Below, one piece after another: positions 25,453-34,520 of a stretch of 64,000 bases of DNA. The translations under genes were made by a program, and so were the position numbers. Below the pieces are notes generated by a model, which did not search any database, had not been told where the DNA came from, and worked only from the letters and a program-made list of their open reading frames with translations. The stretch is from Clostridia bacterium. GTDB taxonomy: Bacteria > Bacillota > Clostridia > Oscillospirales > Acutalibacteraceae. The stretch lies in NCBI GenBank assembly GCA_017449935.1, contig JAFSYP010000101.1, forward strand, positions 1 through 64,000, given 5' to 3'. How positions within the stretch are numbered: position 1 is the stretch's first letter; each line of letters begins with the position of its first letter.

Positions 25453-25764
25453 TTTGACCGCCTCCCTATCAGCGGATAGTCTTCCCTTTTTTCGGAAATC
25501 TATACATATTTTATATATATGTGCTGATCGCAATTCTTTTCGTGATTTTCAACAAATGTTCCACTTCGGAATATTTGTTGATTTTTTTGTGAAATATCTA
25601 TTAAATTTATGTGTACTTTTTGCGCATTCCCACGAAAAAATCAAAAAAATTTGCACTTTTTCCGAAAATACTCTTGCATTATCAGTCCCGATTGTGTAAA
25701 ATGTATATGTTTAGATTGTCATTTTGCATAACTGTGATGATGATGAAGAAGAGGAGTTTTTCAG
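25453..25764. other. Intergenic region, AT-rich, 5' of the ftsEX locus
   Basis: 312 bases without a supported gene. The left half carries the ribosome binding site and presumably the promoter of the minus-strand membrane protein gene. The right half is strongly AT-rich with A/T tracts (25555-25670), ends in a good sigma-A promoter and leads into the regulator gene. No RNA structure of a known riboswitch class is recognised. Confidence 0.6.
25674..25702 (+). promoter_or_regulatory. Sigma-A-type promoter of the regulator-ftsEX-hydrolase locus
   Basis: TTGCAT (25674-25679), 17 bases, TAAAAT (25697-25702), preceded by long A/T tracts that could act as an UP element. About 60 bases before the regulator ATG. 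No other strong promoter is evident until the terminator at 34.5 kb. Confidence 0.75.
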
Positions 25765-26850
25765 ATGTCAAACAGATTGTTTCAGGGTGTTATTCATCAG
25801 ATGCGTGATGCAATGAAACGCATGGTCGGCGTGATCGATGAAACGGGTACCGTCATTTCGTGCAGCGAGCTGGGCAGGATCGGCGAGGTTTTGTCCGGCT
25901 TACCGGAGGACCTGTTCACCGAGCAGACGGCGATGCAGGCCGACGGGTTGACTTTCCGTTCCTTCGGCTCGCAGGCGAAGGCCGAGTATGCCGTATTTGT
26001 GGAAGGCACCGACGACATGGCCGTTCGGTTCGTCGATCTGTGCTGCGTTTCGCTCGAAGCGATCAAGCAGCTCGGCGACGAAAAGTACGACCGCGGCAAT
26101 TTCGTCAAAAACGTTATTCTCGACAATATCCTGCCCGGCGATATTTATCTCAAGGCGCGCGAACTTCGTTTTAATAACGAGGTTTCGAGAGCTGTGCTGC
26201 TGATCCGCCTGTCGGACGGCAGCGACGTTTCCGTCTTTGACGTGATGCAGAACCTTTTCCCGGACAAATCAAAGGATTTCGTGATCAGCATCAACGATAC
26301 CGACATCGCGCTGGTCAAGGAAGTGCGGCCGAATGTGGAGACCGGGGATTTGGAAAAGCTCGCGCGTTCGATCTCGGATTCGCTCGGCTCGGAGTTCTAT
26401 TCTCAGCCCTTGGTCGGTATCGGCACGACCGTGAAGGACATCAAGGATCTGGCCCGTTCGTTCAAGGAGGCGCAGGTCGCGCTGGAGGTCGGCAAGGTGT
26501 TCGACACGGAAAAGGTCATCGTCAGCTATGACAATCTCGGGATCGCGCGGCTGATCTATCAGCTCCCCACAACGCTGTGCGACATGTTCCTGCGCGAAGT
26601 ATTCAAGAGCAATTCCATCGAATCGCTCGATCAGGAAACGCTGTTTACGATTCAGCGCTTCTTTGAAAACAACCTGAACGTATCCGAAACCTCCAGAAAG
26701 CTCTTCGTCCATCGCAACACGCTCGTCTACCGCCTTGAAAAGATCAAGAAGTTCACCGGACTGGATCTGCGTGAATTCGACGACGCGATCGTCTTCAAAG
26801 TGGCTTTGATGGTGAAGAAGTATCTGGACGCCAAGCCCGTGAAATTCTGA
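25765..26850 (+). CDS. CdaR/PucR-like transcriptional regulator
   Basis: 361 aa. The N-terminal ~120 residues (MVGVIDETGTVISCSELGRIGEV) resemble the sugar-diacid-recognition domain of CdaR. A GGDEF-like middle region is followed by a C-terminal PucR helix-turn-helix: NVSETSRKLFVHRNTLVYRLEKIKKFTGLD. GAGGAG is eight bases before the ATG. It is 27 bases upstream of ftsE on the same strand and apparently in the same transcript. It could autoregulate this locus or control distant genes; the ligand is unknown. Its position beside ftsEX is unusual for a metabolic regulator. Confidence 0.78.
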   Translation: MSNRLFQGVIHQMRDAMKRMVGVIDETGTVISCSELGRIGEVLSGLPEDLFTEQTAMQADGLTFRSFGSQAKAEYAVFVEGTDDMAVRFVDLCCVSLEAIKQLGDEKYDRGNFVKNVILDNILPGDIYLKARELRFNNEVSRAVLLIRLSDGSDVSVFDVMQNLFPDKSKDFVISINDTDIALVKEVRPNVETGDLEKLARSISDSLGSEFYSQPLVGIGTTVKDIKDLARSFKEAQVALEVGKVFDTEKVIVSYDNLGIARLIYQLPTTLCDMFLREVFKSNSIESLDQETLFTIQRFFENNLNVSETSRKLFVHRNTLVYRLEKIKKFTGLDLREFDDAIVFKVALMVKKYLDAKPVKF

Positions 26851-26877
26851 TCGACTGTGAAGTGAGAAAGGAAAGCT

Positions 26878-27753
26878 ATGATTGAGTTTAAGCACGTTTC
26901 CAAAGTATATGACAACGGCACCCGTGCGCTGGATGACGTCAATATCTCCATCTCGGACGGCGAGTTCGTTTTTATCGTCGGCGCTTCCGGCGCCGGCAAG
27001 AGTACCTTCCTGAAGCTGATGATGCGTGAGGACGTTCCGTCCAGCGGCTCCATCCAGGTGGGCGACTTCAATCTCGGCGCGCTCGCCAAGCGCAAGATCC
27101 CCTATTTCCGCAGAACGATGGGCATCGTGTTTCAGGATTTTCGCCTGATCCCCACCATGACCGTCTATGACAACGTCGCGTTCGCCATGCGCGTGATTGG
27201 CACCAAAGAAAGCCAGATCCGCAAGCGCGTGCCGTACGTGCTCAACCTCGTCGGTCTGGCCAACAAGGCGCGCAATCTGCCGCTGGAGCTTTCCGGCGGC
27301 GAGCAGCAGCGCGTCGCTCTCGCGCGCGCGCTGTCCAACAACGCCGACATCATCATCGCGGACGAGCCGACCGGCAACGTCGACCCGCAGATGTCGCTGG
27401 AGATCGTCGAGCTGCTTACCCGTCTGAACGAGGGCGGCACGACGGTCATCATGGTCACCCATGCGCACGAGCTGGTCCAGCAGTTCGACCGCCGCGTCGT
27501 GATATTAGAGAACGGCCGCGTCGTGTACGACGGCAATTCCAAGGACAGCGGCGACATCCTCGCTTCCTCGCAGGGACACCTCGACAGAGCGTATATGGAC
27601 AATTTCGATCCCAGCTTTGCCATCAAGGCGGAGAGCAACGCCTCCGCGCTCGATGCGTCCATCAAGAAATACGGCAACTCCAAGTTGGCGGACACGTCCG
27701 GTGACTTCAACGTCTATCTGGATAATTCCGGCAACGAAGAAGCGCAGGATTAA
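26878..27753 (+). CDS. ftsE: Cell division ATP-binding protein FtsE
   Basis: 291 aa ABC ATPase. Walker A GASGAGKST, Q-loop VFQDFRLIPTMTVYDNVAF (typical FtsE), signature LSGGEQQR, Walker B IIIADEPTGN, and a H-loop His in MVTHAHE. FtsE drives FtsX, which in other bacteria switches on peptidoglycan hydrolases at the septum. The protein is about 60 residues longer than the usual ~230; the tail (SQGHLDRAYMDN...NEEAQD) is hydrophilic. GAAAGG precedes the ATG. ftsX follows after 16 bases. Confidence 0.96.
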   Translation: MIEFKHVSKVYDNGTRALDDVNISISDGEFVFIVGASGAGKSTFLKLMMREDVPSSGSIQVGDFNLGALAKRKIPYFRRTMGIVFQDFRLIPTMTVYDNVAFAMRVIGTKESQIRKRVPYVLNLVGLANKARNLPLELSGGEQQRVALARALSNNADIIIADEPTGNVDPQMSLEIVELLTRLNEGGTTVIMVTHAHELVQQFDRRVVILENGRVVYDGNSKDSGDILASSQGHLDRAYMDNFDPSFAIKAESNASALDASIKKYGNSKLADTSGDFNVYLDNSGNEEAQD

Positions 27754-27769
27754 GAAAGGAGTTGTACAT

Positions 27770-28696
27770 ATGTTTTCCGGCAGTCTTCGTTACCTCACCA
27801 AAGAGGGCTTTCGTAACGTCTGGGTCAACCGACTCATGAGCATCGCTTCCGTCTGTGTTCTGATGTCGTGCCTTATCATGATCGGCGTGGCGTTCATGAG
27901 CTTCGTCAACGTCCAGGCTTTGCTGGACGAGGTGGACGAGCAGAACGTCGTCATGGTCTTTGTCGACAACAACCTCTCCCCCGAACAGATCGAGGTCATC
28001 GGCAACAGCATTGAAGCGCTCCCGAATATCCAGAACATCATTTACCATACCGCGGAAGAAAACAGCAAGGATTTTTACGAAAAGAACAAGAATGAACTGT
28101 ACGTCGATTATTTCGATGATGAAGAAGCGGAAACGATCCCGGCTTCTTTTGAGGTGCATCTGAACGACATGTCGCTGTTTGACGATACGCTCGACAAGAT
28201 CAACGCCATCGAAAACATCCAGCACGTCCGCCAGAGCAAGGAGCTCGCGACCTTCCTTGTATCGCTGCGACGTTCCGTTTCCGTCATCAGCATCGGCGCC
28301 GTCGCGATGCTTCTGCTTGTTTCCCTGTTCATCATTTCCAATACCGTCCGCATCACCATGCACAGCAGACGGCTGGAGATCTCCATCATGAAAAACGTCG
28401 GCGCGACGAATTCGTTCATCCGCTGGCCGTTCATGGTTGAGGGCATGATCCTCGGCGCGTTCTCCGGTCTGGTGTCTTTGGGCATCGTTTACGGCCTGTA
28501 TCAGCTGATCGTGACGTCCACGAGCGGCGCGTTCGGCGTGCTCAAGCTCATCCATCTCGTCGATTTCAAGGATTATTGGTATTGGATTCTGATCGGCTTT
28601 GAGGCGATCGGTATCATCACGGGCAGCTTCGGCAGCGCGATTTCCATTAAGAAGTATCTTAAGGAGAAGGATTATGACGAGGTCACGGATAATTGA
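27770..28696 (+). CDS. ftsX: Cell division protein FtsX
   Basis: 308 aa. The FtsX layout is clear: N-terminal YLTKEGFRNVWVNRLMSIASV leading into transmembrane segment 1, a roughly 120-residue extracellular loop, then three transmembrane segments (ISIGAVAMLLLVSLFIISN, MVEGMILGAFSGLVSLGIVYGLY, WILIGFEAIGIITGSFGSA) with MHSRRLEISIMKNVGATNSFI between them. It couples FtsE ATP hydrolysis to an external hydrolase. ATG 27770 follows AAAGGAG. The 3' end overlaps the first M23 hydrolase gene by 23 bases, implying coupled synthesis. Confidence 0.96.
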   Translation: MFSGSLRYLTKEGFRNVWVNRLMSIASVCVLMSCLIMIGVAFMSFVNVQALLDEVDEQNVVMVFVDNNLSPEQIEVIGNSIEALPNIQNIIYHTAEENSKDFYEKNKNELYVDYFDDEEAETIPASFEVHLNDMSLFDDTLDKINAIENIQHVRQSKELATFLVSLRRSVSVISIGAVAMLLLVSLFIISNTVRITMHSRRLEISIMKNVGATNSFIRWPFMVEGMILGAFSGLVSLGIVYGLYQLIVTSTSGAFGVLKLIHLVDFKDYWYWILIGFEAIGIITGSFGSAISIKKYLKEKDYDEVTDN

Positions 28697-30311
28697 TTTC
28701 CGATCTGTCGTCTGTCTCATTCTGACGCTGACGCTGTGCGTCTGCACGGTCATGCCGGCGTACGCGGAGTTCACCTACTACAATATCACGACGACCAAAA
28801 AGACAACCACCTCTGCGCAAGCGTCGGAAGCGGAACCACAGTCGCCGCAGGACGAGAACGCGGACGCGCCGTCGACGACCGCGGAGCCGACCACGACGAG
28901 CGAACAGCTCTCGCAGCTCCAGGAGCAGTATGACAAGCTGGAAGAAAAGATCCAGCAGGGCGAAAAATCGCTCGGCGAGCTGGAAGACGGCAAGACGCAG
29001 CAGAACAAAAACATCCAGGTCATTCAGTCCAACATCAAGGACCTTGACGGACAGATCGACATTTTGGAGCAGCGCGTTTCCGTCCTGAATTCCGACATCA
29101 CGAAGCTGAATTCGTCCATCACCGTCCTCAACAGCGAGATCGCGACGCTCAATTCATCCATCACCAGGACGGAAGACAGGATCTATGAAACGACCTGCAA
29201 AACGGATTACCTGTACGGAAAGATCAAGGGCAGGCTCGTCCTGAATTACATGTACGGTCCGGTTTCCAATCTGGAGATTCTCGTCGGCGTGCGCGACCTG
29301 CCTACCCTGCTGACCAAGCTGCAGATCATTAACAATCTCTCTCAATACGATCAGAAGATCGTCGACGAGTTCGAGAAAAACCTGACAGAGCTGAACAACC
29401 TCAATTCCGTCCTGTCCGCCGACAAAAAAGCGCTGGACGTCAAGCAGACAAGCCTCTCCGGCGAAAAGGAAACGCTGTCAGGCCGGCAGTCCGACATGGA
29501 ATCTTCACAGTACGTGCTCGATCTCAAGAAGGAGCTGTCGGAGCATAAGTATGCAGAAGCGGTCGAGTATCTGAAAACGCTCGACAAGACCAGCATTGAA
29601 TACAATTCCGTGCTGCGCCTTCTGGAAAAAGAGCAGGACAAGGTCGACGACCAGATCAACGCGTATCTGCTGCGGTACGGCTCCTCCGCGGACAAGCCTG
29701 CGGCCGAGGGCGTGACCAACGCTTCCGGCGACGGCGACGCATCCACCTCGAGAACGAAGCCTTCGCAGACGAAGCGCACCATGCCGATGATCTCGGCGTC
29801 CTATGCACCCAAGACTACGCAGACGTCGTCCGAAAATACGCCGGACGCGTCAGATATCACGTTCCCGCAAACGTCTGTGGCCGTCGTTTCGCCGGAATCC
29901 ATAGATCTGATCTGGCCTTTGCCGTATAAGAATTGCTATATCTCCGCGTATTACGGCCAGTATCCTTCCGGCGGCGAACACCACGGACTGGACATTTGCG
30001 TCAGCGGCGGCACGGAGGGCAAGAACGTCGTGGCCGCGGCGGACGGCACCGTCATTTCGTACGGCTTCAACCACTGGTCAATGGGCAATTATGTCATCAT
30101 CGACCACGGCTGCGGACTGTTCACGGCCTATTACCATATGCAGAAGCTGTTTGTCGAAGAGGGCGACCATGTCAAGCAAGGTCAGGTGATCGGTCTGGCC
30201 GGCCACACCGGCAACACAACCGGTCCGCATCTTCACTTTGAGGTCCGCGTCAGCCGCGGCGGTACGATCACGCGAATGGATCCTTTGAAATTCGTGTCGA
30301 TGCCCGACTGA
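28674..30311 (+). CDS. Coiled-coil M23 (LytM) peptidoglycan hydrolase, paralogue 1
   Basis: 545 aa secreted protein. The signal peptide ends near AYA (about residue 31). A short Thr/Ser-rich stretch, two long coiled-coil helices (about 75-250 and 255-345, Q/E/K/L-rich) and a second low-complexity linker precede a C-terminal LytM domain. Zinc ligands are intact: His436 and Asp440 (GGEHHGLD), HLH at 519-521. Architecture matches EnvC and other FtsEX-controlled M23 factors. AAGGAGAAGG precedes ATG 28674, which lies inside the end of ftsX. Control by FtsEX is inferred from family knowledge and position. Confidence 0.88.
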   Translation: MTRSRIIDFRSVVCLILTLTLCVCTVMPAYAEFTYYNITTTKKTTTSAQASEAEPQSPQDENADAPSTTAEPTTTSEQLSQLQEQYDKLEEKIQQGEKSLGELEDGKTQQNKNIQVIQSNIKDLDGQIDILEQRVSVLNSDITKLNSSITVLNSEIATLNSSITRTEDRIYETTCKTDYLYGKIKGRLVLNYMYGPVSNLEILVGVRDLPTLLTKLQIINNLSQYDQKIVDEFEKNLTELNNLNSVLSADKKALDVKQTSLSGEKETLSGRQSDMESSQYVLDLKKELSEHKYAEAVEYLKTLDKTSIEYNSVLRLLEKEQDKVDDQINAYLLRYGSSADKPAAEGVTNASGDGDASTSRTKPSQTKRTMPMISASYAPKTTQTSSENTPDASDITFPQTSVAVVSPESIDLIWPLPYKNCYISAYYGQYPSGGEHHGLDICVSGGTEGKNVVAAADGTVISYGFNHWSMGNYVIIDHGCGLFTAYYHMQKLFVEEGDHVKQGQVIGLAGHTGNTTGPHLHFEVRVSRGGTITRMDPLKFVSMPD

Positions 30312-30366
30312 TTTATGTAGATTCAACATCAAATACTGATATTTAAGAAAGGAGCGTGTTTGCTTT

Positions 30367-31893
30367 ATGCACGGAAAGAGCCTGCGAATCAAAGCCGTTC
30401 TATCGGTTCTTCTGGCTGCCGGGATCGCGTTTTCGGCGACTGCCCCGATCTCTCATGCCGAGGAATCCGTTGCCGAGCTGCAGGCGCAATACGAACAGCT
30501 TGAGAAACAGATCAAAGAAAACCAGAAAAAAATCGACGAAAAGAAGAAAGAGTCGAAGGATCAGTCTGCGGTCGTATCGGAGATCGAAGACGAGATCAGC
30601 GACCTGAATACGCAGATCACCATCTTAGACAAAAAGATCGATCTCCTGAACGGCCAGATTGAGGGATTGAGCGGCAGCATCTCCACCCTTGACAACGAGA
30701 TCCAGGTGTTGGACGAGCAGATCCTGCAAACGAAGGAAAACATCATCGTTTCCAAAATACAGATCGACCAAACGTACCATAAGCTCGTCGAACGCCTGTC
30801 GAAGTCCTATATGGCCGGCAGCGCGTCGGAGCTGGAGCTGCTGCTGGGCGCAAAGAATCTGAAAGACATTCTGACGTGGCAGCAGTATATTCACAACGCT
30901 TCGGCGTACGATCAGCAGATGATCGATTCACTCAAGACCAATATTGAGGCGCTCGAGGGCTTGCAGACCGAGCTGGACGCCACCGTCGAGGTCGCCAACA
31001 CGAAAAAGGAAGAAGCGAAGACGCAGCTTGCCGAGCTTGAGACCAAGAAGACCGAGGCGTCCTCGTCGGCTGAAGACCTGACTTTAAAAAAGAATACGGC
31101 GAATTCCAAGCGCAACGAAGCCTATGCGATGCTCAAGACGATGAACAAAGAGAGCAAGGAGTATCAGGAGCTCAACGAACAGATGCGCGCGGAAGAGGAA
31201 CGCCTGGACGCGGAGCTGAACAGTATGCTGCGCAAAAAAGCGTCCGTCATGCAGGACCCCGTTCCCGTAACGACGACGTCCGCCACGACCGCAGCGCCGA
31301 CAACGACTGCGCCGACGACCACCACGACGACTGCCGTGACGAAACCCTTCGATCCCGACGCGCCGGCGACCGAAGCGGAATCCGAGACGGAAACGACGAC
31401 CGAAACGACTACGACGACCACGACCGCGACGACGGAAGCGACCACGGTTTCCTCCGGCAGCGGCTATTCTCCGAAGTCGCGCGGTTTGATCTGTCCGATC
31501 CAGGATCCCCATGCCTACGTCAGCGGCACATATCCCTACTATCGCAGCGGCGGCGAGCATCACGGCATTGATATCGTCGTCTCGGATACCGGCAAGACGT
31601 ACGGGCATGACATCGTCGCGCCGCAAAGCGGCACGGTCATCACGCTTGAATACGGCGACGCCTCCCGCGGCAACTATATGGAGATTGACCACGGCAACGG
31701 TCTGGTGACACGGTACTATCACTGCAGCTCTATCAGCGTCTCTTTGGGACAGAACGTCTCTAAGGGACAGGTGATCGCCAAGGTCGGCGACACCGGCAAC
31801 GTGACGGGACCGCATTTGCACTTTGAGGTACTGCTGAACACGACATCCGGTCTGATCCGTCAGGACCCGCTCGACTACATCTCCGTGCCTTGA
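30367..31893 (+). CDS. Coiled-coil M23 (LytM) peptidoglycan hydrolase, paralogue 2
   Basis: 508 aa. A signal peptide (VLSVLLAAGIAFSATAPISHA) is followed by coiled coils from about residue 37 to 285 (VAELQAQYEQLEKQIKENQ...). A long Thr/Glu-rich linker at about 300-360 encodes runs of Thr. The LytM domain has His398/Asp402 (GGEHHGID) and HLH at 483-485, so it should be active. The catalytic domain differs more from paralogues 1 and 3 than those do from each other: it has a different loop after the first His (SDTGKTYGHD). AAGAAAGGAG precedes the ATG. Confidence 0.88.
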   Translation: MHGKSLRIKAVLSVLLAAGIAFSATAPISHAEESVAELQAQYEQLEKQIKENQKKIDEKKKESKDQSAVVSEIEDEISDLNTQITILDKKIDLLNGQIEGLSGSISTLDNEIQVLDEQILQTKENIIVSKIQIDQTYHKLVERLSKSYMAGSASELELLLGAKNLKDILTWQQYIHNASAYDQQMIDSLKTNIEALEGLQTELDATVEVANTKKEEAKTQLAELETKKTEASSSAEDLTLKKNTANSKRNEAYAMLKTMNKESKEYQELNEQMRAEEERLDAELNSMLRKKASVMQDPVPVTTTSATTAAPTTTAPTTTTTTAVTKPFDPDAPATEAESETETTTETTTTTTTATTEATTVSSGSGYSPKSRGLICPIQDPHAYVSGTYPYYRSGGEHHGIDIVVSDTGKTYGHDIVAPQSGTVITLEYGDASRGNYMEIDHGNGLVTRYYHCSSISVSLGQNVSKGQVIAKVGDTGNVTGPHLHFEVLLNTTSGLIRQDPLDYISVP

Positions 31894-31915
31894 TTTGGTG
31901 AAAGAAGGTGCACAA

Positions 31916-33253
31916 ATGCGCAAATCGAATCCGCATGTGAAGATCCTGCGTTGTCTGTGCAGCTTGTCTCTCGCGCTCATACTGGCGCTTTCTTCGTCGG
32001 TTTTTCCGCAGACCGCCCATGCGCAGACTGTGGAAGAATTGGAAGAGAAGTATAACAAGCTGGAAAAACAGCTGAAAGAAAACGAAAAGAAGCTGTCGGA
32101 CAATGCGGAAGACCGCGTGGAGCAAAAGGACAAGATCGCATCGCTCGAGTCGCAGATCAACGATCTGAACGAGCAGATCGACATCCTTGACGCGAAGATC
32201 GCCGTGCTCAATTCCGATATTCAGGGATTGAACGACAATATCCTTGCGCTGGACGCCGAGATCGAGGACGTCAATGCGCAGATCACGGCGACCAGGATCG
32301 AAATCAACATGGCTGAAACGAACATCAGTCAGACGTACAAAAAATACATGGAACGGATGAAGCTGTCCTATATGATGGGACAGTCGTCCCGGCTCGAGCT
32401 GCTGATCGGCGCCGACAGCTTGTCCGACATCCTGACGCGCCAGCAGTTTTTGCAGAACGCGGCGAAATACGACAACGAGCTTATTAAGAGCATTGAGGAA
32501 GACATCGACAGTCTGAACGAGATGAACGTGTCGCTCGACGCCGCGATGGACCGCGTTACGCAGAAGAAGGCCGAGGTTGAAAAGGAGAAAAAGGAATTGC
32601 AGGCGAAGCAGGCCAGCGTCCAGTCGACCGAAAGCGACCTGACCGCCAAGAAGTATACCGCCGACGCCAAACGCGGCGACGCCGTCGCGATGCTGAAAAC
32701 GCTCGACAAGGAGAGCGAGGAATACAAGCGCATGAATGAGCAGCTTGCCGCAGAAAAGATTAAGGTGTCCGCGGAGATCGACGCTTTGATCGCCGCGCAG
32801 GGTTCGTCGGAGGGCGACGAAATGCCTGTCGAGACCAAAAACGACGGCTCGCTGATCTGGCCGCTGCCGTACCCGAACTGCTATATCTCCGCCTATTACG
32901 GCCAGTATCCCTCCGGCGGCGAGCATCACGGCGTCGACATTTGCGTCAGCGGCGGCACGGAAGGTAAAAACATCGTCGCGGCGCAGAGCGGACGCGCGAT
33001 GACCGTCGGATACGGCCACTGGTCGATGGGCAACTATATCATTCTGGACCACGGCAACGGTTTGTTTACGGCATACTATCACTGTAGCCAGATCCTGATC
33101 AGCGAAGGCCAGACCGTCAAGCAGGGACAGGTAATCGCCAAAGCCGGCCAAACCGGAAACACGACAGGCCCGCATCTGCATTTTGAAGTCAGAAAGAATC
33201 AGAACGGAACTGTCGTGCGGCAGAATCCCCTGAACTACGTTTCCATGCCGTGA
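31916..33253 (+). CDS. Coiled-coil M23 (LytM) peptidoglycan hydrolase, paralogue 3
   Basis: 445 aa. A signal peptide ends near AHA (about residue 37). Coiled coils (VEELEEKYNKLEKQLKENEKK and onward) run to about residue 300, followed directly by LytM with no long Thr-rich linker. Ligands are His337, Asp341 and HLH at 420-422. The LytM segment, including WPLPYPNCYISAYYGQYPS, is nearly the same as in paralogue 1, at DNA level too (about 29.93-30.1 kb against 32.87-33.04 kb), implying recent duplication or gene conversion. ATG 31916 has AAGAAGGTG six bases upstream. It precedes the S41-like gene by 13 bases. Confidence 0.88.
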   Translation: MRKSNPHVKILRCLCSLSLALILALSSSVFPQTAHAQTVEELEEKYNKLEKQLKENEKKLSDNAEDRVEQKDKIASLESQINDLNEQIDILDAKIAVLNSDIQGLNDNILALDAEIEDVNAQITATRIEINMAETNISQTYKKYMERMKLSYMMGQSSRLELLIGADSLSDILTRQQFLQNAAKYDNELIKSIEEDIDSLNEMNVSLDAAMDRVTQKKAEVEKEKKELQAKQASVQSTESDLTAKKYTADAKRGDAVAMLKTLDKESEEYKRMNEQLAAEKIKVSAEIDALIAAQGSSEGDEMPVETKNDGSLIWPLPYPNCYISAYYGQYPSGGEHHGVDICVSGGTEGKNIVAAQSGRAMTVGYGHWSMGNYIILDHGNGLFTAYYHCSQILISEGQTVKQGQVIAKAGQTGNTTGPHLHFEVRKNQNGTVVRQNPLNYVSMP

Positions 33254-33266
33254 CGAAGGAGCTGAC

Positions 33267-34466
33267 ATGAGCAAAAAGATTTCTTTTGGCGTGACGCTCG
33301 CGCTGGTGCTTGCCGCGATCGCGGCGACCTTCGCGATCACAATGGCGTTCTCGCAGTCTGTCTATAACCGATTGATCTCGAATATTTCCGGACGCGCGGA
33401 GATGTATGCCGCGGTGGACGACATTAACACGCTCATCCGCAACAACTACTTCTATTACGCGTCCATAAACAACGAGAACATCAATCAGAGCATCGCCAAC
33501 GGCTACATCGAAGGTCTGGACGATCCGAACAGCCGGCTGCTGACCGCGGAAGAATACGCCGATTACAACAACCGCCTGAACGGAAAAGCGTCCGGCGTCG
33601 GCATCACGACGGCATGGGACGCGTCGGCGCGTTCCCTGGTCGTCACGTCCGTGGCAAACGGTTCCTCCGCCGCGGCCAAAGGGATCAAAAAAGACGACGT
33701 TATCCTGCGTATCGCGGGCGAACGCGTCAATGCGCAGAATTACGAACAGCTTCTTTCGTCGCTCAGCGGCGACACGCTTTCAACGATTTCCGTGACCTGC
33801 AAGCGTAAGGACACGGAGCTGGAATTTAATGTGACGGTCGGGTACAGCTATGTTTCCGTGACGCGCAAATCGCTCGGCTCTGTGGGATATGTCCGCATCA
33901 CGGACTTTTACGCCAACACGCAGGAACAGCTCAAGGAGGCCGTCGGCGCACTGCAGGATTCGGGCGCAACGGCGATCGTGTTCGATCTGCGCGGCACGTC
34001 GAACGGTACGGTTGAATATGCCGCCGCGGCGATCGACTGTATCACGCCGATCTGCAGCAACCAGAACGAAGTGCTGGTCAATCTGGTCGGACGGGACGGA
34101 AAGATCCTGCTCTCCTACCCTTCCACATCCAACGATCTGAATGTACCGATGGCCGTATTGACGGACGAAAAGACCGCCGGTCCGGGCGAACTGTTTGCCT
34201 GCGACCTGCATGATTTCGGAAAAGCGATCCTCGTCGGAACAACAACGGCCGGCGTCGGCACCGCGCAGCAGGCGTTCACGCTCGAGGACGGCAGCGCCGT
34301 GATCCTGACGACTTCCAAGATCGAGTCGTACAAGAAGACGCCGTTCAACGATACCGGTCTGTCGCCGGACTATGAAGTCAAATTGGAAGGCTCGGACACG
34401 CCGGAGCTTTTGAGCGAAAAGGACGACGTCCAGCTGCAAAAAGCCGTTTCGTTATTAAAACAGTAA
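33267..34466 (+). CDS. S41-family protein with PDZ domain, probable pseudoprotease
   Basis: 399 aa. N-terminal membrane anchor (VTLALVLAAIAATFAITMAF), a CtpA-type N-domain (YIEGLDDPNSRLLTAEEY), a PDZ domain at about 105-190 (VVTSVANGSSAAAKGIKKDDVILRIAG), and an S41 core from about 200. At the place of the usual SASASE catalytic serine the sequence reads TAGPGE (Gly307), and at the catalytic lysine of TFGKG it reads TAGVG (Val330). Both dyad residues are therefore missing, so proteolysis is unlikely. AAGGAG is seven bases before the ATG. Last gene of the ftsEX locus; a scaffold or regulatory role for the hydrolases is an inference. Confidence 0.8.
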   Translation: MSKKISFGVTLALVLAAIAATFAITMAFSQSVYNRLISNISGRAEMYAAVDDINTLIRNNYFYYASINNENINQSIANGYIEGLDDPNSRLLTAEEYADYNNRLNGKASGVGITTAWDASARSLVVTSVANGSSAAAKGIKKDDVILRIAGERVNAQNYEQLLSSLSGDTLSTISVTCKRKDTELEFNVTVGYSYVSVTRKSLGSVGYVRITDFYANTQEQLKEAVGALQDSGATAIVFDLRGTSNGTVEYAAAAIDCITPICSNQNEVLVNLVGRDGKILLSYPSTSNDLNVPMAVLTDEKTAGPGELFACDLHDFGKAILVGTTTAGVGTAQQAFTLEDGSAVILTTSKIESYKKTPFNDTGLSPDYEVKLEGSDTPELLSEKDDVQLQKAVSLLKQ

Positions 34467-34480
34467 AACAGGATATGAAG

Positions 34481-34520
34481 ACGCCCGGAAGATCGTGAAT
34501 GCTTCCGGGCGTTGTTTTAT
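34481..34520 (+). terminator. Rho-independent terminator of the ftsEX-hydrolase locus
   Basis: Perfect 11-bp stem ACGCCCGGAAG (34481-34491) / CTTCCGGGCGT (34502-34512), a 10-base loop, then TGTTTTATTT. It overlaps the convergent ylmH stop codon. Confidence 0.92.

Follow-up and report, generated by a model that had tools for sequence, protein, structure and literature searches.

The window analysed here is a stretch of 64,000 nucleotides from a Clostridia bacterium. Open reading frame analysis of the window placed seven genes on one strand between a conserved promoter and a strong hairpin: a CdaR/PucR-like regulator gene, ftsE, ftsX, three genes for M23 proteins and a gene for an S41-like protein. 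The intergenic gaps in gene order are 27, 16, −23, 55, 22, and 13 bases, the negative value being the 23-base overlap of the ftsX and M23-1 reading frames. These values agree with the original prediction, which described seven same-strand genes with small gaps and an ftsX overlapping the first M23 gene. Together with the conserved promoter and the terminator, the gaps are consistent with a single operon, and the seven genes would be read as a single transcript. Some weak sites found by a pattern scan count against a single clean unit, namely one + strand promoter-like site (30863) and five + strand terminator-like sites inside the genes. Over the 16 kb scanned, promoter-like sites numbered 14 (8.6 ± 3.1 expected) and terminator-like sites 26 (18.7 ± 4.5 expected).

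The promoter (25674..25702, + strand) reads TTGCAT-N17-TAAAAT with TGTG before the −10 element. The −10 region (ATTGTGTA) is unchanged in 9/9 aligned loci of the genus; at the −35 element TTG is retained in all nine and the full TTGCAT in six. Outside the genus, 43 of 97 loci, which are related and so not independent counts, have the −10 core TTGTGTA(A/T)(A/T)AT ahead of the regulator gene, compared to 0.2 in shuffled sequence. This conservation within and outside the genus rules out a chance match. The site had been claimed from the start, and it is conserved in the genus loci even though the pattern scan missed it because its −35 element matches the consensus at 3/6 positions. The leader (25703..25764, + strand) contains a stretch of partial conservation, which reads AGATTGTCATTTTGCATAA in the window and is similar in most of the nine genus loci. 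At the other end, the strong terminator that had been proposed is an intrinsic hairpin (34480..34513, + strand) with a 12-bp stem, −24.4 kcal/mol and a z-score of −4.8; it is missing from the pattern scan because its loop exceeds the limit of the scan. The promoter pattern was also searched in 11 genomes of the genus; eight of them contained 13 exact matches between them, and the reversed control gave none. The known ftsEX promoters account for six of these matches. For five of the remaining seven, the neighborhoods were examined (L231, L232, L234, L235, and L237, with G002:C8 and G004:C55 left out); all five precede unrelated genes, one being tRNA-Gly in the genome of the window. A CdaR regulon based on this pattern was therefore rejected, and the matches were taken as ordinary promoter grammar.

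The first gene (25765..26850, + strand) encodes a CdaR/PucR-superfamily regulator of 361 aa. HTH_30 (66.6 bits) and GGDEF_2 (49.4 bits) were found in it and in all members of a 22-member family alignment with 73% mean column identity. It had been called a "diacid-type" regulator, a label that fits only in part: the HTH_30 and GGDEF_2 domains are clear, but Diacid_rec scores 14.6 bits against a cut-off of 23.6 in the window protein (13/22 aligned members match at E ≤ 0.01), and the CdaR equivalog score is 73.8 against 612. A CdaR/PucR-like gene lies upstream of ftsEX in 49/54 close loci and 29/40 class loci, and in 0/20 phylum loci outside the class. The pairing of such a regulator with FtsEX, at first thought to be out of the ordinary, is thus the usual order in the class.

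The next two genes encode FtsE and FtsX. FtsE (26878..27753, + strand, 291 aa) scores 278.7 bits against the curated model TIGR02673 (cut-off 264.85). Its C-terminal tail is longer than that of distant FtsE proteins; the idea that this tail is specific to the genus was not borne out, as named relatives are also long-tailed (median 102). FtsX (27770..28696, + strand, 308 aa) scores 241.4 bits against FtsX_Gpos (NF038347, cut-off 225), and its extracellular domain FtsX_ECD (PF18075) scores 49 bits against a cut-off of 23.5.

Gene order was compared across relatives of the host, itself a relative of gut Ruminococcaceae. The close-relative set leaves out six of the 59 other genomes, five with only short or weak matches (G015, G017, G020, G030, and G040) and one whose match is split across two contigs (G029). 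The class sample is the best match from each of 40 of 71 genomes over the cut-off and the phylum sample that from each of 20 of 74, where both totals count the genome of the window as well as one or two genomes that the order or class sample already covered. Class and phylum loci were taken in handle order with one best FtsX match per genome. L091 and L167 are duplicates of L039 and L065 in FtsE + FtsX. The alignments comprise 25 FtsX rows and 22 regulator rows. A FastTree of 139 loci draws on 12 of the 60 loci from class and phylum, and loci with a weak FtsX or no FtsE were left out of it. In the 20 phylum loci outside the class, an M23 gene follows ftsEX in 18 and an S41 gene is present in 19. 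A novel gene order was therefore rejected. A lack of conservation in relatives, which would have spoken against the original prediction, was not seen; the form with three M23 genes occurs in four of the eight complete genus loci, with independent parallels elsewhere.

The three M23 proteins score 100.1, 91.9, and 98.5 bits against Peptidase_M23 (PF01551, cut-off 28.7). The earlier view that a single FtsEX is followed by three M23 enzymes related to each other is supported. Copy 1 (28674..30311, + strand, 545 aa) has a long tether of 77 residues and belongs to a paralogue clade of 11 rows. Copy 2 (30367..31893, + strand, 508 aa) has a long tether of 83 residues rich in Thr, Ser, and Pro and is the youngest copy in a quick M23 tree. 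Copy 3 (31916..33253, + strand, 445 aa) has a short tether of 18 residues, within the range of 8–41 residues seen in 36 rows outside the genus. Within the genus, tethers measure 76–105 residues in first copies (10/10), 80–83 in middle copies (3/3) and 14–21 in short copies (9/9). The M23 alignment covers 58 of 217 M23 rows, and the quick tree omits three further tandem rows (L223). In this tree, a single ancestral M23 effector underwent one duplication at the base of the genus and another within it.

Three M23 genes could also reflect dosage amplification, with redundant FtsEX effectors and tethers that are neutral drift in low-complexity sequence. Tandem M23 copies also arose separately in other lineages: in the quick tree, the copies of G012, G023, G031, and G039 group with one another (support 100), as do those of G027 (support 87), and therefore duplication is easy here. 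Moreover, the long tethers are of Thr/Ser/Pro-rich composition. Counting against the reading by reach that is favored below, copies 1 and 2 are similar in tether length and the G031 tethers (19, 41, and 34 residues) follow no long-to-short order; tether length may simply be drifting. However, the tether classes hold in 22/22 genus rows although copies 1 and 2 of the window are only 44–45% identical to copy 3, and the long branch of copy 2 (0.72) suggests a change of function. Dosage is an unlikely explanation, if far from a negligible one.

FtsEX is usually described with a single hydrolase or activator. In the FtsEX-EnvC systems of E. coli and P. aeruginosa, the same FtsE and FtsX orthologues are found with one effector, compared to three here. 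The M23 profile matches the EnvC architecture over nearly its full length: it covers positions 52–437 of 440 of the FtsEX-bound P. aeruginosa EnvC (8i6o_E, E 4e-48), and also matches EnvC chains 8hd0_E (53–437) and 6tpi_A (55–437). EnvC is described as an amidase activator (PMC11627006). In contrast, the LytM domains here have the full zinc and catalytic set H-D-H-H-H (HxxxD, YxH, HxH) in 58/58 aligned M23 proteins, window copies included, and on the strength of these residues they should be enzymes. In the P. aeruginosa complex, the EnvC residues reported to touch FtsX at the coil hinge are Y121, L122, L125, L126, and Q128 (PMC11627006). These contacts align with a conserved SxLExLLGA motif, at a residue offset of 19 inferred from matching letters, and the motif is present in all three window copies. 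The M23 proteins are thus predicted to be EnvC/PcsB-type effectors, with a coil that carries the hinge motif followed by a hydrolase-type domain. The coiled-coil region was not found, when read by eye, in the three other M23 proteins of the genome.

The catalytic domain is CHAP in PcsB and NlpC/P60 in CwlO, unlike the M23 domain found here, and this locus has several effectors, placed immediately after ftsX. The likeness lies in a coiled-coil effector that is itself a hydrolase, as described for S. pneumoniae PcsB and B. subtilis CwlO (PMC11627006), and the PcsB coiled coil is reported to bind FtsX (PMC6355983). CC_PcsB is detectable in 44/58 M23 proteins at E ≤ 0.001. In the window, only copy 3 is over the cut-off (30.2 bits); copy 2 reaches 20.3 bits, and CC_PcsB is not among the 25 families listed for copy 1, whose coil tip has its own signature (FTKLQII-like instead of LTxQQ-like). 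From this, it could be argued that one copy is the FtsEX effector and that the others, although in the operon, have moved to other partners, to sporulation or to elongation. The FtsX-contact motif in every copy speaks against this, as does the fact that 8/8 complete genus loci have kept both copy 1 and one or more short-tether copies after ftsX, and the explanation is quite unlikely.

The last gene (33267..34466, + strand) encodes an S41/CtpA-like pseudoprotease of 399 aa with a PDZ domain. An S41 core (PF03572, 99.2 bits, cut-off 24) and PDZ_2 (35.4 bits) were found; the score against NCBIfam prc is 159.8 bits, below the cut-off of 218.6, and the best solved-structure match is CtpB (4c2f_A, E 4e-22). 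The S41 core and PDZ are, by sequence, common to this protein, B. subtilis CtpB and P. aeruginosa LbcA-CtpA. CtpA is reported to need each of Ser302 and Lys327 for proteolysis (PMC11021448). Unlike CtpB and CtpA, the window protein has Gly305 for the catalytic Ser and Val330 for the Lys, and so it cannot be a Ser-Lys protease; this supports the pseudo-S41 protein proposed at the outset. In 8/8 genus rows the Ser is replaced by Gly and the Lys by Val, Asn, or Thr, and the dyad is intact in 25/25 resolvable class rows and 19/19 phylum rows (63 of 119 readable S41 rows were aligned, and seven with a gap at the dyad column were assigned to neither state). A second S41 was not found in the genome of the window or in the other genus genomes searched.

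The dyad changed state seven times on the FastTree of 139 loci (83 with a readable S41 state) and eight times on a quick tree built with IQ-TREE from 82 loci. Five independent contrasts on supported branches reduce this to at least five changes, with the protein retained. That the class and phylum samples have Ser-Lys suggests that the direction of change was loss. The S41-like protein is under purifying selection as a retained pseudoprotease: dN is 0.11–0.16 and dS 1.0–2.4, giving a dN/dS of about 0.05–0.14, similar to FtsX, where the estimates are rough because dS is near saturation. A gene decaying towards loss is very unlikely, since, despite the absence of an operon S41 from some relatives, the protein has this selection, a nearly constant length (399–414 aa in 8/8 genus rows), 80 and 84% amino-acid identity to two close species, and a dyad that changed repeatedly while the protein was kept. 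L052 and its relatives, a related clade of which several have three M23 genes, have the operon without S41; for L052, no S41 was found anywhere in the genome (G031), and the S41 partner is therefore dispensable there. A link between M23 multiplication and S41 inactivation was not supported on the 82 loci: over five supported S41-contrast pairs, the M23 trait differed in the direction of the S41 state in 0.3, in the opposite direction in 0.3 and not at all in 4.4 on average, a comparison of little power. With M23 copy number and S41 state unassociated, the pseudoprotease is not explained by several effectors.

The locus is a standard clostridial FtsEX wall-hydrolase operon in which the effector has been amplified and the S41 protein turned into a pseudoprotease, its two uncommon features. 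We favor, with a probability of about 0.6, a reading of the sequence in which one FtsEX motor drives three interchangeable hydrolases of different reach, together with a non-proteolytic CtpA-like partner. FtsE as ATPase and FtsX as membrane transmitter would form the motor. Each M23 protein would dock on FtsX through the hinge of its long coiled coil, which is followed by the tether and a zinc LytM endopeptidase, and the coil, on the model of EnvC and PcsB, would keep LytM inactive until the FtsEX ATP cycle frees it. The P. aeruginosa FtsEX-EnvC complex has a reported stoichiometry of 2:2:1 (PMC11627006). By analogy with this other species, exchange or competition would be favored over simultaneous assembly, and with one effector per FtsEX dimer, the three M23 proteins most likely alternate or use different dimers. 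The short tether of copy 3 may restrict it to peptidoglycan near the membrane, and the long tethers of copies 1 and 2 may reach more distant layers. Regulation of the operon probably falls to its own CdaR/PucR-like protein, which would respond to a signal.

The ancestor of the S41-like protein would have been a CtpA-type protease, probably trimming or degrading the M23 effector; four of the substrates described for LbcA-CtpA are predicted to be wall hydrolases, and two of these belong to M23 (PMC8764530). With the S41 core and PDZ kept and the dyad lost, the protein most likely still binds hydrolases, as a scaffold, chaperone or brake that does not cut. A dead hydrolase relative that controls live hydrolases is described for DipM (PMC10336132). 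The idea of a dead relative as regulator is shared with DipM and EnvC; here, however, it is a protease relative that is dead, and the LytM proteins are live, judged by their motifs. A more specific and rather improbable proposal is that the pseudo-S41 is an effector selector, whose PDZ and dead tunnel hold the M23 tails or tethers and choose which M23 goes to FtsX. If this were true, the operon would be a set of exchangeable wall cutters graded by reach, driven by one ATP-powered motor, with a retired protease doing the sorting.

The FtsEX system itself is known, and what is new here is the number of effectors and the pseudo-S41 variant, for which interchangeable hydrolases with a non-cutting partner would supply the mechanism. 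Several apparently intact hydrolases with a shared docking motif and different tethers are found at one FtsEX, an arrangement that evolved more than once, and the locus is a natural test case for whether tether length sets the site of FtsEX wall cutting. The regulator often accompanies ftsEX across the class and shows strong conservation, so its signal would be worth finding. Finally, the dyad was lost repeatedly beside FtsEX and the protein stayed, which suggests an additional, cutting-independent role in binding for S41 proteins near ftsEX.

The window operon spans positions 25765-34466 and contains seven genes on one strand, encoding a CdaR/PucR-like regulator, FtsE, FtsX, three M23 proteins (copies 1, 2, and 3), and an S41-like protein, separated by 27, 16, -23, 55, 22, and 13 bases, in that order. 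The original prediction is confirmed in both arrangement and gaps, and the promoter it placed at 25674-25702 (plus strand) is upheld by conservation in the genus and beyond. Its ATTGTGTA is invariant in 9/9 aligned genus loci, and the -35 element starts with TTG in all nine and reads TTGCAT in six. Outside the genus, the -10 core was present in 43 of 97 upstream regions, compared with 0.2 in shuffled sequence. The strong terminator also predicted corresponds to a hairpin closing the operon (folding energy -24.4 kcal/mol, z -4.8). Inside the operon genes, a pattern scan returned one weak promoter-like and five weak terminator-like matches on the plus strand. We infer one transcript for all seven genes. 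The stretch separating the promoter from the minus-strand ORF upstream of it holds an inverted repeat of 14 pairs with a T run after it (25549-25581); this element aligns poorly among relatives.

The window's contig is 65 kb long and belongs to a draft genome of 2.95 Mb (87% complete). Judged by FtsX (81% identity), the closest named relative is the MAG Ruminococcaceae bacterium RUG13553, whose FtsE and FtsX are the same as those of genus member G002. Gene order was compared in a close sample (54 loci, made up of the window plus 53 of 59 other genomes), a named sample of 80 loci (two duplicating close-sample loci), and two outer samples, one drawn from the other orders of the class (40 loci) and one from the phylum outside it (20 loci). 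Genes in all samples were placed using profiles built on the 54 close loci. In the phylum sample, ftsE lies ahead of ftsX in 20/20 loci, M23 follows in 18/20, and S41 is present in 19/20; in the class sample, where some contigs are cut, M23 follows in 35/40 and S41 is present in 27/40. The conservation check proposed with the original prediction found the order kept in relatives; the arrangement is of a known kind, and its conservation is deep. Parts of it are presumably also present in Clostridium acetobutylicum and B. subtilis.

The combination with a CdaR/PucR-like regulator had been called unrecognized, yet it proved ordinary. Counted when it lay upstream of ftsE on the same strand, at no more than 1.5 kb and with no other profile gene in between, the regulator was found in 49/54 close, 63/80 named, and 29/40 class loci, and in 0/20 outside the class. 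Because it is common in the first three samples and absent from the last, it was added at the level of the class to an ftsE-ftsX-M23-S41 order that is older. Among the five close loci where it was not counted, L038, L047, and L081 are cut by contig ends, L052 carries it about 1.8 kb upstream, beyond the counting distance, and a search of L080 found none. The protein has clear GGDEF_2 and HTH_30 domains and a weak Diacid_rec match; solved structures match its profile in the C-terminal HTH part only. Its conservation is strikingly high, with 58-89% identity to the window protein over 21 relatives and a mean column identity of 73%, compared with 49% for FtsX (25 rows), over differing row sets. 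In G017 and G030, which belong to the window's family and are both 99% complete, FtsX matches were weak and partial (E 6e-5 and 5e-7) and a search for S41 found none, which suggests loss of the whole system.

In a quick tree, the genus M23 proteins form one clade (25 rows, support 97) that splits into copy 1 (11 rows, 100) and a copy 2/3 group (14 rows, 99). Inside the latter, copy 2 sits on a long branch (5 rows, 100) and genome G007 has its own M23 pair (98). These splits indicate a first duplication older than the genus, followed by one or more inside it. Three M23 genes are present in four complete genus loci (the window, L039, L040, and L042) and two in another four (L043-L046); the remaining three of the 11 (L038, L041, and L047) are cut by contig ends. 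At least two M23 genes directly follow ftsX in 14/54 close loci. Tandem copies also arose separately in G012, G023 (second copy 5.4 kb off), G031, and G039 (support 100), and in G027 (87). Three M23 genes were also found in one phylum locus (L223) and in 8/80 named loci, one being G002 again. In related loci L052, L102, L106, L112, L113, L119, and L120, three M23 genes follow ftsX and no operon S41 was found; L098 resembles these, its contig ending shortly past the third M23.

The M23 profile covers positions 52-437 of 440 of EnvC in the P. aeruginosa FtsEX-EnvC complex (8i6o_E). Reported EnvC hinge contacts with FtsX are Y121, L122, L125, L126, and Q128 (PMC11627006). With a residue offset of 19 taken from matching letters, they would fall on the stretch YLKLLLNQ, which the alignment pairs with a conserved M23 motif, SxLExLLGA (SNLEILVGV, SELELLLGA, and SRLELLIGA in the window copies). 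The three remaining M23 proteins found in the genome are of another build and, on inspection by eye, are without the coil-hinge region. Unlike EnvC, the aligned M23 proteins should be able to cut, since the H-D-H-H-H set is kept in 58/58 rows. Among the window copies, the curated CC_PcsB model exceeded its cut-off in copy 3 alone, which speaks against equal effector membership of the three.

What sets the copies apart is the tether from coil to LytM, which measures 76-105 residues in 10/10 first copies, 80-83 in 3/3 middle copies, and 14-21 in 9/9 short-tether copies (copy 3 in the window), with 8-41 in 36 rows outside the genus. On this basis, the short tether may serve peptidoglycan near the membrane and the long tethers more distant layers. 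The similar tethers of copies 1 and 2 count against such a model, as do the G031 tandem tethers of 19, 41, and 34, ordered otherwise than in the genus.

The FtsX extracellular domain (within 27770-28696, plus strand) has a lobe whose end, preceded by an acidic stretch, reads IPASF or VPASF in the 8 aligned genus rows (YVDYFDDEEAETIPASF in the window); NPLP occupies this position in 10/17 non-genus rows. Like the first M23 duplication, this change is genus-wide. The FtsE C terminus (within 26878-27753, plus strand) extends 119-156 residues past Walker B in 9 distinct genus rows, with medians of 59 in 15 phylum rows and 102 in 42 named rows, where long tails also occur.

The S41 protein aligned to CtpB across residues 54-372. 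The nucleophile and base are Ser309/Lys334 in CtpB and Ser302/Lys327 in CtpA, whose activity is reportedly abolished by S302A and by K327A (PMC11021448). The window protein has Gly and Val at these positions, and in 8/8 genus rows Ser is replaced by Gly, and Lys by Val, Asn, or Thr. The full dyad is missing in 19/24 rows of the window's family (genus included) and 3/19 rows of the order's other families; Ser-Lys is present in 25/25 resolvable class rows (two more are cut) and 19/19 phylum rows. Two trees gave 7 or 8 state changes, and supported branches carry five contrasts that are independent. Because the outer samples are Ser-Lys, it follows that these changes would be losses. No association between S41 state and M23 number was found among loci on the tree. 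Exactly one S41 match was found in 9/11 genus genomes and none in G004 and G009, both of which have a cut operon contig; the match is the operon copy in eight of the nine and lies untyped on another contig in G005. With at most one match each, no active S41-family protease was found in the genus genomes within draft completeness, the typed copies being the eight operon ones. In four pairs, dN was 0.11-0.16 and dS 1.0-2.4, giving a dN/dS of about 0.05-0.14, near that of FtsX, a rough value with dS near saturation. In L079 (7179-9541), two adjoining S41 genes follow M23, the first with Gly and Ile (dyad lost) and the second with Ser-Lys, possibly an intermediate stage of pseudoprotease birth.

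P. aeruginosa LbcA-CtpA is reported to degrade predicted M23 and NlpC/P60 hydrolases (PMC8764530), and on that account an S41 gene adjoining an FtsEX hydrolase could plausibly have begun as the protease of that hydrolase. With the dyad lost and the fold kept, it would become a binding protein. Since FtsEX binds EnvC at a reported 2:2:1 stoichiometry (PMC11627006), three effectors that share a docking motif would be competitors for a single FtsEX motor. The coil of PcsB and of EnvC is described as holding back the catalytic or LytM domain (PMC11627006). For the window operon, we infer this whole mechanism by analogy.

Among the matches listed, open-access titles and abstract openings gave no description of multiple FtsEX hydrolases sharing an operon or of a pseudo-CTP beside ftsEX, and none of the listed open-access titles on pseudoproteases and S41 concerned S41 peptidases. 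C. difficile is described as lacking FtsEX (PMC12140426), so a C. difficile model misses this system. The window operon differs from the known order in its triplicated, tether-diverged effectors and retained pseudoprotease, which, judged from sequence, are what is new in it.
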